Positions 42,281-48,150 are shown, counted from the first letter of the stretch. The stretch: DNA of 64,000 nucleotides from Nitrospira lenta (GCF_900403705.1 NZ_OUNR01000001.1:806001-870000), one strand, 5' to 3'. The notes: generated from the sequence alone by a model not told the origin. Numbers and translations are program-made.

Positions 42281-43924
42281 ATGAATTCCGTTCTCTACGT
42301 TTTTCTGCCATGCAAGAAGGTCTATCCGATAGGAATCACCTATCTGGCTGACTTCATTCACCGCCGCCAGCCGGACGTACGTCAGCAAATCCTCGATCTG
42401 TCACTCTTTCCCGTTTCCCAGCGCAGCCAGGCCCTGCGCGATGCGGCGACCGCCTTCAAGCCTGACCTGGTCTGTTTTTCCTGGCGGGATATTCAGATTT
42501 TCTCCCCCCATGAAGGCGATTCGTCGCTGGAACATGCGTTCAACTTCTACTTTGCCAGCAACCCGCTCAAGCGCGTGGTGGCCTCGTTTGCGGGCGTGCA
42601 GCAGCTCTACCGCTACTACAGCCACATCTACAAAATTCTGTCGTATCCCTGGTTGATCCGCAAAGAGTTTTCCAAGGCGCAGATCATGATCGGGGGCGGA
42701 GCCTTTACGGCCTTTGCCGATCAGCTCATCGAGAAATTGCCGGAGGGCACGATCGGCCTGCTCGGCGAAGGGGAAGATGCGATCCTGAAAGTGATCGAAG
42801 GACGCTCAATCGAAGACGAACGCTACATTATTAAAGAAGGCGGAAAAGTTCGGAAAGGCCAGCAGGGCTCTCCGGCGCTGCTTGATGCCCTGACCGTCGA
42901 TCTTCCTTATCTGACGTCGATTTTCCCTCAGCATCGCGAATTTATCGGCGAATCGATCGGCGTGCAGACGAAACGGGGCTGTCCCTACGACTGCGCCTTC
43001 TGCCTCTACCCCTATATTGAAGGGAAACGGGTCCGGTATCGGCCGCCCGCCATGGTCGTGAAGGATATTTCCCAGCATTACCATCAGTGGGGAGCGCGGC
43101 GGTTCTGGTTTACCGACGCGCAGTTCATCACTGGGAAAGAAGCCTATCCCCAATGCACGGAGATTCTGGAACGGATTGTCAGTGAAAAGTTGGAGATCGA
43201 ATGGTCCGGCTATATCCGCACCTCTCTCATTACGCCTGAGCTGGCGAAGCTGATGGTCCGATCGGGCGTCGGAGATCTGGAAGTGGCGATTACATCCGGA
43301 TCCCAGGAGGTGCTGAACAACCTGCATATGGGGTTCAAGCTCGAACGCCTCTATGATGGATGCCGCTACCTGGCCGAAGCCGGATTCAAAGGCAAAGTCA
43401 TCCTGAACTATTCGCTCAATTCTCCCAAAGAGACGGAAGAGACGCTCTTGCAAAGTGTGGAGTCCTATAAGATCGTCGCCTCGATCCTTGGAGAAGAACG
43501 GGTGTTCCCCCTGATGTTCTTCCTGGGCATCCAGCCGAATACCGACCTTGAGCAGCGCTTGCTTGAAGAAGGGTACCTATCAGCCGGCTATAACCCCTTG
43601 ATGCTCACCCCGACCAGCATCCGGAAGCTGCTCTATAACCCAGCCCCTCTCAACGGCTTCATTGCCAAAGCCTGTCTGAAGGCCTGGGAACGGAAGGAAG
43701 GCAGTCGCGATCCAAGGAAATGGACCGGCTCCCTCTCTCAAACAGCGTCCGCCGACACGACGGGGCAATCCGGCCAATATGCCGACAAGAGCCTGGTCAA
43801 AGGGATCGAGGGGAACTCCGGCCGGGATGCATTGCTCTCACTAGAAGAGATTCTTCGGTCGCGCAAAAACCTGTCTTCTTCTGCGCCCTCCTCCTCAAAA
43901 TCATCCGCGACACCCGTTTCCTAA
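42281..43924 (+). CDS. B12-binding-type radical SAM protein
   Basis: A 547-residue protein. The N-terminal 170 residues have the Rossmann-like layout of cobalamin-binding radical SAM proteins (VLYVFLPCKKVYPIGITYLADF, then FKPDLVCFSW and AQIMIGGGAF) but no clear D-x-H-x-x-G cobalamin motif. The radical SAM core starts with the cluster motif KRGCPYDCAFCLYPYIEG (C-x3-C-x2-C), with family traits such as FWFTDAQFITG and EVAITSGSQEVL. The C-terminus is Ser/Thr-rich. Relatives include the BchE/HpnP type of tailoring enzymes; the substrate is unknown. Its neighbours are ubiE/menG and the PCP_red genes, which points toward quinone, lipid or tetrapyrrole modification. Confidence 0.8.
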   Translation: MNSVLYVFLPCKKVYPIGITYLADFIHRRQPDVRQQILDLSLFPVSQRSQALRDAATAFKPDLVCFSWRDIQIFSPHEGDSSLEHAFNFYFASNPLKRVVASFAGVQQLYRYYSHIYKILSYPWLIRKEFSKAQIMIGGGAFTAFADQLIEKLPEGTIGLLGEGEDAILKVIEGRSIEDERYIIKEGGKVRKGQQGSPALLDALTVDLPYLTSIFPQHREFIGESIGVQTKRGCPYDCAFCLYPYIEGKRVRYRPPAMVVKDISQHYHQWGARRFWFTDAQFITGKEAYPQCTEILERIVSEKLEIEWSGYIRTSLITPELAKLMVRSGVGDLEVAITSGSQEVLNNLHMGFKLERLYDGCRYLAEAGFKGKVILNYSLNSPKETEETLLQSVESYKIVASILGEERVFPLMFFLGIQPNTDLEQRLLEEGYLSAGYNPLMLTPTSIRKLLYNPAPLNGFIAKACLKAWERKEGSRDPRKWTGSLSQTASADTTGQSGQYADKSLVKGIEGNSGRDALLSLEEILRSRKNLSSSAPSSSKSSATPVS

Positions 43925-44093: not shown

Positions 44094-46190
44094 ATGTATA
44101 AGACCATCTATATCCCGGTCGATAATTCCGACCATTCCAATACAGCCGTCGACGTGGGCGTCGAGTTCGCGAAGACCTTCGGATCCAAGATTGTCGGCAG
44201 CCACGTCTACGCGGCGAAGATGCACGACAAACGCTTCAAGCAGATGGAAGCGGGACTGCCGGAGGAGTATCACGATGAAAAGGAACTGGACCGCCAGCGG
44301 CAGATCCACGATTCGCTGATCACGCGCGGGCTCCAGATCATCACGGACTCCTACCTCGACTACGTCGACAAGAAATGCAACGAGTCCAACCTCCCGATTG
44401 AGCGGAAATCCCTTGAGGGCCGCAATTGGAAGGTGCTGGTCGAAGATATCAATACCAACGCCTACGATCTGGTCATCATGGGCGCGCTGGGCGTCGGCGC
44501 GGTAAAAGACAGCGTGATCGGCAGCAATACCGAACGCGTGATCCGCCGCATCCGCAACTCGGACATGTTCATCATCAAGAACACCGAGCCGATGAACAAT
44601 GGCAAGATCGTAGTGGCGGTCGACGGCAGCCCCTACTCATTCGGCGGATTAATGACGGGCCTGGCCCTCGGCAAAGCCTTTAATCGTCCGGTTGAAGCCA
44701 TCGCGGCATTCGATCCCTATTTCCACTATGCCGCCTTCCACAGCATCTCGGGCGTATTGAACGAAGAGGCCGGCAAAGTCTTCCGCTTTAAAGAACAGGA
44801 AAAGCTCCACGAAGAAATCATCGACAGCGGCCTGGCCAAAATTTACCAGTCGCATCTCGATATTTCCCGAGAAATCGCCCAGGCCGAGGAAACTGACGTC
44901 AAGACGACGCTCCTCGACGGCAAGGCGTTTGAAAAGATCATCCAGTATGTCCGCAAGGATGTCCCCTGGCTGCTGATCGTCGGCCGCATCGGCGTCCATA
45001 GCGATGAAGATATGGATATCGGCAGCAACACGGAGAATCTCTTGCGCAGCGCTCCGTGCAATGTCTTAGTGTCCAATCGCAAGTATGTGCCCCCGATCGA
45101 TACCCAGGCCGAGTACACCATCGCCTGGACGGAAGAGTCCCTTCGCCGCATGGAAAAGATCCCGATCTTCGCCCGTGGCGTCGCCAAGACGGCCATTCAC
45201 CGCTATGCGATCGAAAAGGGCCACACGATTATCAGCAACACCGTCATTGATGCTGCGGTCGGCCACATTCTCCCCAAGGGCGCGATGGACGCGATGCGCG
45301 CGTTGGGCGGCAACCTTGAAGCGGCCGGAATCGATCGCGACAAGATGCAGGCGGACGATTCGGTCGCCCAAGACCTCATGGGGAACACCCTGAGCGGCAT
45401 GATGACCGGCATTGTAGAAGAGAAACCGAAGAATTCTGCCGGAACCCAAGCCTATCTCGACCGCATGAGCCAAAACTACTTCGTGTGCGACGGCTGCGGG
45501 TATATCGGAAAGGGCGACACGCCGGTGAAATGCCCGGTCTGCTCAGCCGACGGCGACAAATTCAAGCTGGTCGATAAACAGATCTTCGAAGCGGCCGCCA
45601 AAGCCGAAGGCGAACTGGAAACCGATCTGGCCTATGACGATGTCCCTATGCAATGGACGAAGGACGCGAAGGAAGCGATCCGCGCGGTTCCCGCCGGCTT
45701 CCAACGCCGTCGCGCCAAAGCCAGGATCGAAAAGAGCGCCAGAAAGCTCGGCATGACGACAATTACATTGGAATACGCCGCTCCTACGATCAAAGAAGCA
45801 GCGGATGAAGACTATCAACCCATTTTCGCAAATAAAGGCACCGGCACCTCGCCGGCCGCTGAGGTCAAGCTCGCCGCAACGACCACGAATGGGACGAACG
45901 GCGAACATGCAAACGGCAACGGCACCGCTAAGCCAGAAGAGACCTCTCCGTTTACCTGGAGCGCCGACGCCCAGGCTCGGCTGGAGCGGGCTCCGGAAGG
46001 TTTTATGCGCGATTGCACCAAGGCCTTGATCGAAAAGCATGCGGAGAAGATCGGAGCGACCCTCATCACGGCTGAAGTGGCCAATGAAGGCATCGAACAG
46101 GCCAAGGGCTATATGGCCGACGCCATGAAGACAGGCAATCTCAAAGACATGATTGCCAATCTGACCGGTTCGAAGTCCGGGGCCAACTGA
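44094..46190 (+). CDS. Universal stress protein fused to rubredoxin-like and three PCP_red domains
   Basis: A 698-residue cytoplasmic fusion. Residues 1-165 and about 168-335 are two Usp domains (YKTIYIPVDNSDHS; KIVVAVDGSPYS), which bind ATP in some relatives. A C-x2-C ... C-x2-C rubredoxin-like knuckle (CDGCGYIG ... CPVCSADGD, about 465-490) follows. Three copies of the small domain found at the C-terminus of protochlorophyllide reductase subunit B (PCP_red) are present: WTEESLRRMEKIPIFARGVA (about 347), WTKDAKEAIRAVPAGFQRRR (about 521) and WSADAQARLERAPEGFMRD (about 625). The stop overlaps the next start (TGATG). A redox or tetrapyrrole role is inferred; no photosynthesis gene is seen. Confidence 0.82.
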   Translation: MYKTIYIPVDNSDHSNTAVDVGVEFAKTFGSKIVGSHVYAAKMHDKRFKQMEAGLPEEYHDEKELDRQRQIHDSLITRGLQIITDSYLDYVDKKCNESNLPIERKSLEGRNWKVLVEDINTNAYDLVIMGALGVGAVKDSVIGSNTERVIRRIRNSDMFIIKNTEPMNNGKIVVAVDGSPYSFGGLMTGLALGKAFNRPVEAIAAFDPYFHYAAFHSISGVLNEEAGKVFRFKEQEKLHEEIIDSGLAKIYQSHLDISREIAQAEETDVKTTLLDGKAFEKIIQYVRKDVPWLLIVGRIGVHSDEDMDIGSNTENLLRSAPCNVLVSNRKYVPPIDTQAEYTIAWTEESLRRMEKIPIFARGVAKTAIHRYAIEKGHTIISNTVIDAAVGHILPKGAMDAMRALGGNLEAAGIDRDKMQADDSVAQDLMGNTLSGMMTGIVEEKPKNSAGTQAYLDRMSQNYFVCDGCGYIGKGDTPVKCPVCSADGDKFKLVDKQIFEAAAKAEGELETDLAYDDVPMQWTKDAKEAIRAVPAGFQRRRAKARIEKSARKLGMTTITLEYAAPTIKEAADEDYQPIFANKGTGTSPAAEVKLAATTTNGTNGEHANGNGTAKPEETSPFTWSADAQARLERAPEGFMRDCTKALIEKHAEKIGATLITAEVANEGIEQAKGYMADAMKTGNLKDMIANLTGSKSGAN

Positions 46191-47593
46191 TGGGTAAATC
46201 GCTCCCGATGCTGGGCCTTCCCTCGTTGCAGGGAGCGCTCGGGTCGCTTCAACAGCAGATCACGCAGTTCATGACCCCCGCGCCGAAGGGCGAAGGAGTC
46301 TATGACGGCCGGACCGTCGATGACTTCAAGCCGTATCTCGTTGCGCTCAATCTGACAAAGCGCTGCAATCTCAAATGCGATCACTGCTACCTCGATGCCA
46401 CCACTAAATCGGCCGGCGGCGACGACGAGCTCTCGACTGAAGAGTGCTACAAACTCATCGATCAAATCGCAGAAGTGAATAAGGGCTGCCTGCTGGTCAT
46501 TACCGGCGGAGAGCCGCTGGTCCGTCCCGACATTCTCGACATCGCCCGCCATGCGGTGAAACTCGGCTTCATGGTCGTCTTCGGCACCAACGGCATGCTC
46601 ATCAACGACCAGATGGCCAAGGCCCTGGTCGAGATCGGCGTCATGGGCGTCGGCATCAGCATCGATTCGCTCGATGCCGCCAAACACAATTCTTTCCGTG
46701 GCGTCCCGGGCGCCTGGGAAGCCGCTGTGGCCGGCATTGAAGCCAGCAAGCGCAATGGCCTTCAATTCCAAGTCCATTTCAGCGCGCAGCCGATGAACTA
46801 TCAGGAGCTGCCGGCGGTCATCGAATGGTCGCATCAACTCGGCGCGCGGGTGCTCAATGTGTTCTTCATGGTCTGCACGGGCCGTGGCGAAGAGCTCACG
46901 GACATTACGCCGGCGCAGTACGAAGAAGTGCTGGGCTACCTGGTCAATTGCCAGGACAACTACAAGGGCATGCTGGTCCGCGCCCGTTGCGCTCCCCACT
47001 TCAAGCGCTTGGCCTATGAGAAGGATCCGAACTCTCCCATCACAAAAGCCACCGGCTACATGGGCGGCGGTTGCCTCGCCGGCACGAACTACGCGCGGGT
47101 CACACCGAACGGCGAATTGACGCCCTGTCCGTATATGCCGCTTTCGGCCGGCAATGTCCGCGAGAATAGTTTCGTCGACCTGTGGGAAAAGTCCGACGTC
47201 TTCAATTCCTTCCGCTACCCACAGCTCAAGGGGAAATGCGGCGACTGCGAATATACCGATATCTGCGGCGGCTGCCGCGCCCGTCCCTACGTAGATCATG
47301 GCGACTGGCTGGATGAAGACGAATGGTGTCTCTACACGCCCAAGGGCGGAGAAAAGATTAAAGTCGCCTTCAACGTCGCGGAAGAATCCGCAATCCCCTG
47401 GGACGAGGCATCCGAGCTGCGCTTGAGCCGCATTCCCTATTTTCTCCGCGCGATGGTCAAGAAGGGCGTCGAGAAGCACGCCCGCGAGAATAGCGTCCCG
47501 CTGATCACCATTGAGTTGATGGAAGAACTCAGGAAAAAGCGATTCGGCAACGACGCGCCCGTCTTCAATTTCGACATGAAGGGTAAAGAGTGA
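46190..47593 (+). CDS. Radical SAM-SPASM enzyme with C-terminal PCP_red domain
   Basis: A 467-residue radical SAM protein. The core cluster motif is LTKRCNLKCDHCYLD (C-x3-C-x2-C, about 57-67), with TGGEPLVRPD soon after. The SPASM/auxiliary cluster region carries GGGCLAG, TPCPYMPLSAGN, and CGDCEYTDICGGCRARPY ... EWCLY (about 350-380), as in the haem-modifying NirJ/AhbC/AhbD branch. Residues about 405-455 are a PCP_red domain (WDEASELRLSRIPYFLRAMV ... VPLITIELMEEL), the fourth copy in two adjacent genes. It is translationally coupled to the upstream gene. Likely a tetrapyrrole or peptide-modifying enzyme; haem synthesis is my leading guess. Confidence 0.82.
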   Translation: MGKSLPMLGLPSLQGALGSLQQQITQFMTPAPKGEGVYDGRTVDDFKPYLVALNLTKRCNLKCDHCYLDATTKSAGGDDELSTEECYKLIDQIAEVNKGCLLVITGGEPLVRPDILDIARHAVKLGFMVVFGTNGMLINDQMAKALVEIGVMGVGISIDSLDAAKHNSFRGVPGAWEAAVAGIEASKRNGLQFQVHFSAQPMNYQELPAVIEWSHQLGARVLNVFFMVCTGRGEELTDITPAQYEEVLGYLVNCQDNYKGMLVRARCAPHFKRLAYEKDPNSPITKATGYMGGGCLAGTNYARVTPNGELTPCPYMPLSAGNVRENSFVDLWEKSDVFNSFRYPQLKGKCGDCEYTDICGGCRARPYVDHGDWLDEDEWCLYTPKGGEKIKVAFNVAEESAIPWDEASELRLSRIPYFLRAMVKKGVEKHARENSVPLITIELMEELRKKRFGNDAPVFNFDMKGKE

Positions 47594-47640
47594 GGTCGTA
47601 ACGGCGGCGAACGGTTGCTGTCTTCCCTCACGAATGCGCT

Positions 47641-48150
47641 ATGGATGCCCTCCAAAGTATTACGACGGATCTGAACACTCTGATTCCGATCATCAATCAC
47701 TGGTTCCACCTGCTGTCCGCCATCATTTGGATCGGAGGGCTGGCGTTTCTCGTCATGGCCGTGACCCCGGGCCTAAAGAAAGCCGTGGCGAAAGAGCAGA
47801 TTAAGCCCATCAGCGACGTGTTTTACCAACACTATAAGAAGATCGCCGGAATTCTTTTAGTGGTGCTGCTGTTTACCGGCGGGGTCAACCTGCACTACGT
47901 CAATCAGGTCATGACCTCGCAGACGCAACTGGGCATCCAGCACAATGCCAAGTACTTGACCGTGTTCTTCATCAAGCTTGGATTAGTCCTCTGTCTCATG
48001 ACCCTGTTTCTCTATACCGTCATCTTCAAGTCAGATGATGACGTAGAGGCCGACGAGGATTATGAAGTCATTCCCTATCAACGTGCGGCTCTCTGGATGG
48101 GGTTTTTCATTGTCCTCTGTGCGGCCGCAATGAAACATCTCCACCTATAA
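47641..48150 (+). CDS. CopD-like four-helix membrane protein
   Basis: A 169-residue inner-membrane protein with four helices: HWFHLLSAIIWIGGLAFLVM (about 20-40), IAGILLVVLLFTGGV, FFIKLGLVLCLMTLFLYTVI, and LWMGFFIVLCAAAM. The His-rich entry of helix 1 (HWFHLL) followed by IWIGG is typical of CopD-related proteins, and the size and topology also recall HemJ-type protoporphyrinogen oxidases. Acidic residues (SDDDVEADED) line the last loop. It begins 47 bases after the radical SAM gene and probably belongs to the same unit; it could supply electrons or bind haem or metal. Confidence 0.75.
   Translation: MDALQSITTDLNTLIPIINHWFHLLSAIIWIGGLAFLVMAVTPGLKKAVAKEQIKPISDVFYQHYKKIAGILLVVLLFTGGVNLHYVNQVMTSQTQLGIQHNAKYLTVFFIKLGLVLCLMTLFLYTVIFKSDDDVEADEDYEVIPYQRAALWMGFFIVLCAAAMKHLHL

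Follow-up and report, generated by a model that had tools for sequence, protein, structure and literature searches.

In the 64,000 nucleotides of Nitrospira lenta DNA analysed here (the window), three adjacent genes encode a Usp/rubredoxin/PCP_red protein, a radical SAM (rSAM) enzyme ending in a PCP_red domain and a small membrane protein. The strongest clue to the role of this unit is its co-occurrence, near-perfect among Nitrospirota, with bd-like oxidases of the OR-N type, next to which its genes also repeatedly lie. The Usp and rSAM genes form a conserved pair, the rSAM proteins make up a single clade in the heme-enzyme branch, and porphyrinogen oxidase genes, several of them extra copies, are linked to them. 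We tentatively favour the reading that these genes form the core of a dedicated pathway for tailoring or delivering a tetrapyrrole, whose clients would be the OR-N bd-like oxygen reductases and their surrounding cytochrome c complexes. The link from unit to oxidase is comparative, and we infer from it and from what follows a tetrapyrrole substrate, binding of the macrocycle by PCP_red, a porphyrinogen oxidase role for gene 3 and the bd-like oxidase as client. The unit is laid out as follows (window positions).

44094..46190, plus strand: protein 1, 698 aa, with two Usp domains, a PCP_red domain, a rubredoxin-type domain and two further PCP_red domains (open reading frame; Pfam)
45126..45257, plus strand: PCP_red domain 1, in protein 1 (48.3 bits, above cut-off)
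45480..45566, plus strand: rubredoxin-type zinc ribbon of protein 1, residues 463-491, CxxC...CxxC (RUBY_RBDX, 27.4 bits against 26.5)
45654..45773, plus strand: PCP_red domain 2, in protein 1 (41.8 bits, above cut-off)
45957..46082, plus strand: PCP_red domain 3, in protein 1 (38.3 bits, above cut-off)
46190..47593, plus strand: protein 2, 467 aa, radical SAM/SPASM enzyme with C-terminal PCP_red (Pfam; NirJ2/AhbD scores; fold model)
46349..46765, plus strand: radical SAM core of protein 2, residues 54-192, with cluster motif C59-x3-C63-x2-C66 (Pfam; cysteines invariant in 34 homologues)
47072..47251, plus strand: SPASM domain of protein 2, residues 295-354, with Cys 295, 313, 350 and 353, and with Cys 359, 362 and 380 just downstream (Pfam; all invariant in 34 homologues)
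47399..47533, plus strand: PCP_red domain 4, C-terminus of the rSAM enzyme (52.8 bits; three helices in the model; matches the solved domain 2kru)
47641..48150, plus strand: protein 3, 169 aa, a probable four-helix membrane protein of approximate CopD/HemJ type (adjacency in relatives; alignment; low-confidence fold)

Genes 1 and 2 overlap by one base (TGATG, 46188-46192). The earlier note had reported four PCP_red domains in these two overlapping genes, joined to stress-sensing and rubredoxin domains, and this observation is confirmed: in profile searches the small domains do match PCP_red, all four (positions and per-domain bits from a six-frame search) above the Pfam cut-off, and both Usp and RUBY_RBDX pass theirs in protein 1. 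There Usp PF00582 reaches 112 bits over two stretches (gathering score 24) and PCP_red PF08369 108 bits across three; protein 2 scores 81 bits for Radical_SAM, 41 for SPASM and 48.6 for PCP_red (the last against 32.5), each above its cut-off. Upstream of the unit, at 42281-43924, lies a radical SAM gene of cobalamin-binding type, nearest to slr0320 'PSII high light acclimation' (443 bits against 775) and kept also in two other Nitrospirota loci (L067, L069).

The rSAM-PCP_red protein is present in 55 of 148 Nitrospirota genomes, carriers being told from AhbD-like matches by a match that extends into the PCP_red tail or, where a contig end cuts it, by higher identity. Named close relatives, in Nitrospira/Nitrospirota MAGs (L067, L069), have rSAM proteins that are ~84-86% identical. 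The order Usp gene, rSAM gene, gene 3 is kept at every Nitrospirales locus examined, so that the three genes do stay together in relatives; the Usp/rSAM-PCP_red pair is kept far more widely than the trio, in deeper Nitrospirota families and in Pseudomonadota. Beyond Nitrospirales, gene 3 has an adjacent position in Poribacteria and in three further families of the class. Full-length rSAM relatives beyond Nitrospirota come from Nitrospina, Brocadia, another planctomycete, Poribacteria, Pseudomonadota MAGs, a deltaproteobacterial MAG and a Bacteroidota MAG. Not every carrier has the pair: five loci outside Nitrospirota (L062, L063, L064, L065, L068) have no nearby Usp gene. In the most divergent families (L053-L056) the Usp partner is free of PCP_red, which suggests that the pairing is older than the PCP_red string of that partner. 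A pyridoxamine-phosphate-oxidase-like gene (weak PF01243 match) follows the rSAM gene at L053, L055, L056 and L075. No paper describing the unit was found in the open-access literature searched and no curated family tested takes it in, in keeping with the proposal that the system had not previously been described.

Several of the neighbours concern heme. In five genomes a HemY gene adjoins the rSAM gene or the Usp gene; the linked HemY scores 223-291 bits against TIGR00562 (98) at L044, L066 and L074, and was found by six-frame search in G049 and likewise, in partial form, in G155. It is extra to another HemY in G008, G049, G155 and G156, and G152 also has a HemJ. At L074 a heme o synthase follows the rSAM gene, and elsewhere (L166:4036-5058) PCP_red is fused to a Chlor_dismutase/HemQ-type domain. 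These links point to a dedicated tetrapyrrole branch, and of the two roles that the earlier note had offered they favour tetrapyrrole tailoring, redox repair being the less favoured; its interpretation as a whole is partly supported. A single ancestral dedicated HemY was also considered: the linked genes give no sign of a single origin and no clear grouping in a poorly resolved tree spoilt by ferrochelatases and an antisense frame, which was not used as evidence. The PCP_red-HemQ-type fusion is apparently general in one Nitrospirota family that has no oxidase.

In the window genome a second, dedicated porphyrinogen oxidase could be the product of gene 3. That it is the genome's only such enzyme is ruled out by a HemY-HemH operon. 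The label CopD/HemJ fits as an approximate description of a probable four-helix membrane protein and fails at the curated cut-offs: 34.6 bits against 195 for CopD NF033808, no match to PF05425 (CopD) in Pfam and, for HemJ PF03653 (gathering 34.2), no match in the window genome at E 0.001, the poribacterial homologue reaching 22 bits. His23, Pro43, Thr79-Gly80, Tyr105 and Lys112 are invariant in the alignment of gene 3 proteins. An hhalign probability of 20% indicates a weak relation to HemJ, in which His23 and Lys112 can be tentatively aligned with the HemJ His/Lys pair; the structure model (pLDDT 61) is too poor for a fold search. At the loci read, HemY and a gene of the gene 3 type never stand together directly beside the rSAM gene, which hints that they may do the same job; G129 has both within a wider cluster.

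The co-occurrence was scored in the same 148 Nitrospirota genomes by searching them with the bd-like protein of the window genome. Both rSAM-PCP_red and the oxidase are present in 53 and neither in 91; two have the rSAM alone (G002, G008) and two the oxidase alone (G018, G069). Fisher's p is 3.7e-35 by genome and 1.2e-17 with Nitrospirales counted once; by family, 11 have both and 15 neither with no exception (p 1.3e-7), shared ancestry being not fully corrected in any of these values. The two rSAM carriers with no oxidase match, the only ones among Nitrospirota, are both fragmented MAGs, and at lower stringency one of them (G002) has an oxidase fragment at a contig end. Outside Nitrospirota the oxidase is found in eight of ten carriers; G152 and G156 have no oxidase match, and the G156 locus holds oxidase-type cytochromes c. 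In five of 20 hand-picked representatives (G049, G111, G129, G025, G157) the rSAM and oxidase genes lie within 15 kb of each other, against 0.3 expected (p ~8e-6). In Nitrospirales they are unlinked (on different contigs, or 311 kb apart in the window genome); there, and in G007, a gene with two PCP_red domains lies close to the oxidase gene.

The query family is probably the published OR-N family, to judge from its host range and gene context and from a partial similarity to Cyt_bd_oxida_I. Published bd-like/OR-N oxygen reductases, known from Nitrospira, Nitrospina and anammox bacteria, are uncharacterised, and they are highly transcribed in N. moscoviensis (PMC6606698, PMC3578206, PMC10839748, PMC12342949); which cofactors and electron donors they use, and what they do, is unproven (PMC6606698, PMC3578206, PMC10839748). 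No paper connecting them with a radical SAM or PCP_red gene was found in the open-access literature. Close to bd-like oxidase genes or to Aio-like genes, a secreted protein of carboxypeptidase-regulatory-like type is found repeatedly (L011:11615-12451, L066:5330-6067, L172:8634-9461).

The partner compared in these counts is the bd-like oxidase. In the strongest rival explanation the unit would serve a different component of that high-potential respiratory chain, such as nitrite oxidoreductase (NXR) or another type II molybdoenzyme with its cytochromes, and would follow the oxidase through lifestyle only. NXR is common to Nitrospira, Nitrospina and anammox bacteria, and the co-occurrence may mirror a shared high-potential respiratory lifestyle. 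The L054 cluster includes an NXR/type II DMSO-reductase-like alpha subunit and an Fe-S beta subunit, and at L066, in a genome with no oxidase match, the pair adjoins an AioA-like molybdoenzyme. It is nevertheless the oxidase, not a molybdoenzyme, that recurs beside the unit (L047, L054, L075, G129, G025) and that has the two-domain PCP_red genes close by, and the presence of HemY and of heme o synthase speaks for heme rather than molybdopterin. We consider an indirect link of this kind unlikely.

Protein 2 scores 324 bits against NirJ2 TIGR04055 and 316 (317 in the six-frame search) against the AhbD heme b synthase TIGR04545, each with a cut-off of 500, and 177 against NirJ of heme d1 synthesis, TIGR04051 (cut-off 515). 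In a tree built on cores trimmed of PCP_red, the proteins that carry PCP_red form one clade (support 100/96) between the NirJ2 and AhbD groups, next to two methanogen proteins. Cys 59/63/66 and 295/313/350/353/359/362/380 are invariant in 34 homologues, giving the CxxxCxxC motif and SPASM cysteines of the AhbD type; Cys267 is invariant too, and the three radical SAM and seven SPASM cysteines and Cys267 are common to AhbD and NirJ2, His270 to AhbD. Because family scores, an independent tree and common cysteines agree, membership in the heme-enzyme branch (AhbD, NirJ2) is supported, as the earlier note had supposed.

The AlphaFold model of protein 2 (pLDDT 80, pTM 0.73) has a SPASM fold and a three-helix PCP_red domain. 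It retrieves radical SAM enzymes in general, SPASM ones first (PqqE, SuiB, SkfB, anSME), with no AhbD or NirJ structure among the fold matches listed; judged on the model, fold searches do not discriminate substrate. That the closest solved folds are those of peptide-modifying SPASM enzymes, and that PCP_red also occurs in long strings with no catalytic partner, would suit a peptide- or protein-modifying system in which PCP_red is a recognition or docking domain, as in RiPP maturases, and the target a cytochrome or oxidase subunit. Sequence, however, puts the enzyme in the heme branch, the fold similarity spans all SPASM enzymes, no small precursor gene recurs among the clustered neighbours of at least 70 aa, and the HemY, heme o synthase and HemQ-type links would be left unexplained. 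Such a system seems to us distinctly improbable.

PCP_red itself proves to be more widespread than the earlier note allowed in calling it otherwise known from BchB. The window genome has no BchB; its PCP_red domains sit in short multi-PCP_red proteins, the Usp protein and the rSAM enzyme. A six-frame search finds seven more strong domains at three other loci: a protein with four PCP_red domains adjoining an IHF-type gene, a rubredoxin-like protein with two adjoining an Mrp/NBP35-type ATPase, and a protein with two that lies two genes from the bd-like oxidase. The structure of a cyanobacterial protein with a single such domain, Asr4154, has been solved (2l09). In a set of 192 distinct domains, conservation of the signature W, A, R, P-x-F-x-R, A, G is 79-97%. 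PCP_red loci that are scattered in the window genome are gathered in one stretch in G129 (L043, L172), with cytochromes c, a bd-like oxidase and HemY. Between the genes for the rubredoxin-like two-domain and the four-domain proteins of the PCP_red cluster lies a heme-oxygenase-like (CADD/BesC-type) protein (L043:8566-9252, L169:7731-8501). PF08369 is listed, and has served, as one of the most prevalent Pfam markers of phototrophs (PMC12815261); its 11-12 copies per genome in the non-phototrophic Nitrospirales have a practical bearing on such use. No paper on PCP_red outside BchB was found in the open-access literature.

Rubredoxin-like PCP_red proteins adjoin an Mrp/NBP35-type ATPase at L043, L075 and L169 as well as in the window genome, and protein 1 of the window combines a pair of Usp domains with a rubredoxin domain. 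From these associations one could construct a system for Fe-S clusters or for redox repair in general, made up of rubredoxin, the Mrp/NBP35 carrier and Usp proteins, in which PCP_red would be an adaptor between proteins; yet it does not account for the heme-type radical SAM enzyme, the linked porphyrinogen oxidases or the oxidase co-occurrence, and hardly for an rSAM gene that, among Nitrospirota with no oxidase match, turns up in two fragmented MAGs only. We give it marginally less credence than the peptide-modifying system.

HemF and HemN are not found above cut-off in Nitrospirales, and this had raised the idea that the rSAM-PCP_red protein is the missing coproporphyrinogen/coproheme decarboxylase. 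HemQ (~200 bits) and HemY are present in Nitrospirales and HemH in Nitrospiraceae, the window genome having all three, and other carriers of the unit have HemN/HemF with HemH, AhbD with HemH, or AhbC/AhbD-like enzymes; in view of these routes the idea was rejected. Since each of the known routes to heme b is found in some carrier of the pair, the unit is, to judge from gene content, an addition to heme b synthesis and no replacement for it. A role as the lineage's coproheme decarboxylase or heme b synthase in place of AhbD, for which closeness to AhbD and the lack of HemF and HemN would speak, was already disfavoured and is on this showing very improbable. Five near-complete genomes of the second Nitrospirales family (G065, G081, G123, G131, G135) have no match to the ferrochelatase family PF00762, though HemY and HemQ are present.

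In the dedicated pathway that we tentatively favour, a porphyrinogen oxidase (the HemJ/CopD-like gene 3 protein in the window, a dedicated HemY in other lineages) would oxidise the macrocycle. PCP_red domains, both those of the Usp-rubredoxin protein and those of partners whose genes lie elsewhere, would bind it or hand it on, and the rSAM-PCP_red enzyme would carry out radical chemistry on it, with the propionate side chains as the likeliest target, by analogy with AhbD and NirJ. The SPASM clusters and the rubredoxin domain may move electrons, the Usp domains may couple the process to ATP or the stress state, and the product would be inserted into the oxidase. A further step, which we think doubtful, is that the system makes an undescribed heme, side-chain- or ring-modified, from porphyrin that a porphyrinogen oxidase of its own diverts, that the OR-N reductases found in nitrite oxidisers, anammox bacteria and other organisms depend on it, and that PCP_red is a general porphyrin-handling domain. 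A bd-type oxidase with only b-type hemes is active in archaea, so the chemistry does not require a special heme. A large part of the nitrogen cycle is driven by nitrite oxidisers and anammox bacteria, many of which have bd-like (OR-N) oxygen reductases. If a maturation system has been inherited together with these enzymes, the question of their cofactor and function would become testable, and PCP_red would gain a role beyond chlorophyll synthesis.

Set against known systems, the unit shares with subunit B of dark-operative protochlorophyllide reductase (DPOR; BchB/ChlB) the PCP_red domain with its signature W-A-R-P-F-R-A-G; the likeness is confined to a 45-residue tail, the nitrogenase-like body being absent (62.7 bits, tail only, against the 490 of the full BchB family TIGR01278), and, unlike the DPOR context, no photosynthesis genes were seen with the unit. 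Gene 3 may resemble the HemJ and CopD membrane families in its four probable helices and, for HemJ, in the tentatively alignable His and Lys, and differs in falling below every curated cut-off. The OR-N type cytochrome bd-like oxygen reductases are the proposed client, sharing genomes with the unit and repeatedly linked to it. The heme d1 pathway offers a parallel, in that NirJ is a radical SAM enzyme acting on a tetrapyrrole for a respiratory enzyme (PMC7242693), as we propose for the unit; the scores differ widely (177 against 515 bits), and no heme d1 genes were recognised among the neighbours read. AhbD and NirJ2 belong to the same radical SAM/SPASM branch, with the cysteines noted above in common and His270 shared with AhbD, whereas the unit's enzyme is a separate clade at 316-324 against 500 bits, has a C-terminal PCP_red domain and usually a Usp partner and, unlike AhbD, coexists with full heme b routes. 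By sequence the rSAM-PCP_red unit thus lies outside every curated family tested, as a variant of the heme-tailoring radical SAM systems; if its product were a new heme, it would be more than a variant.
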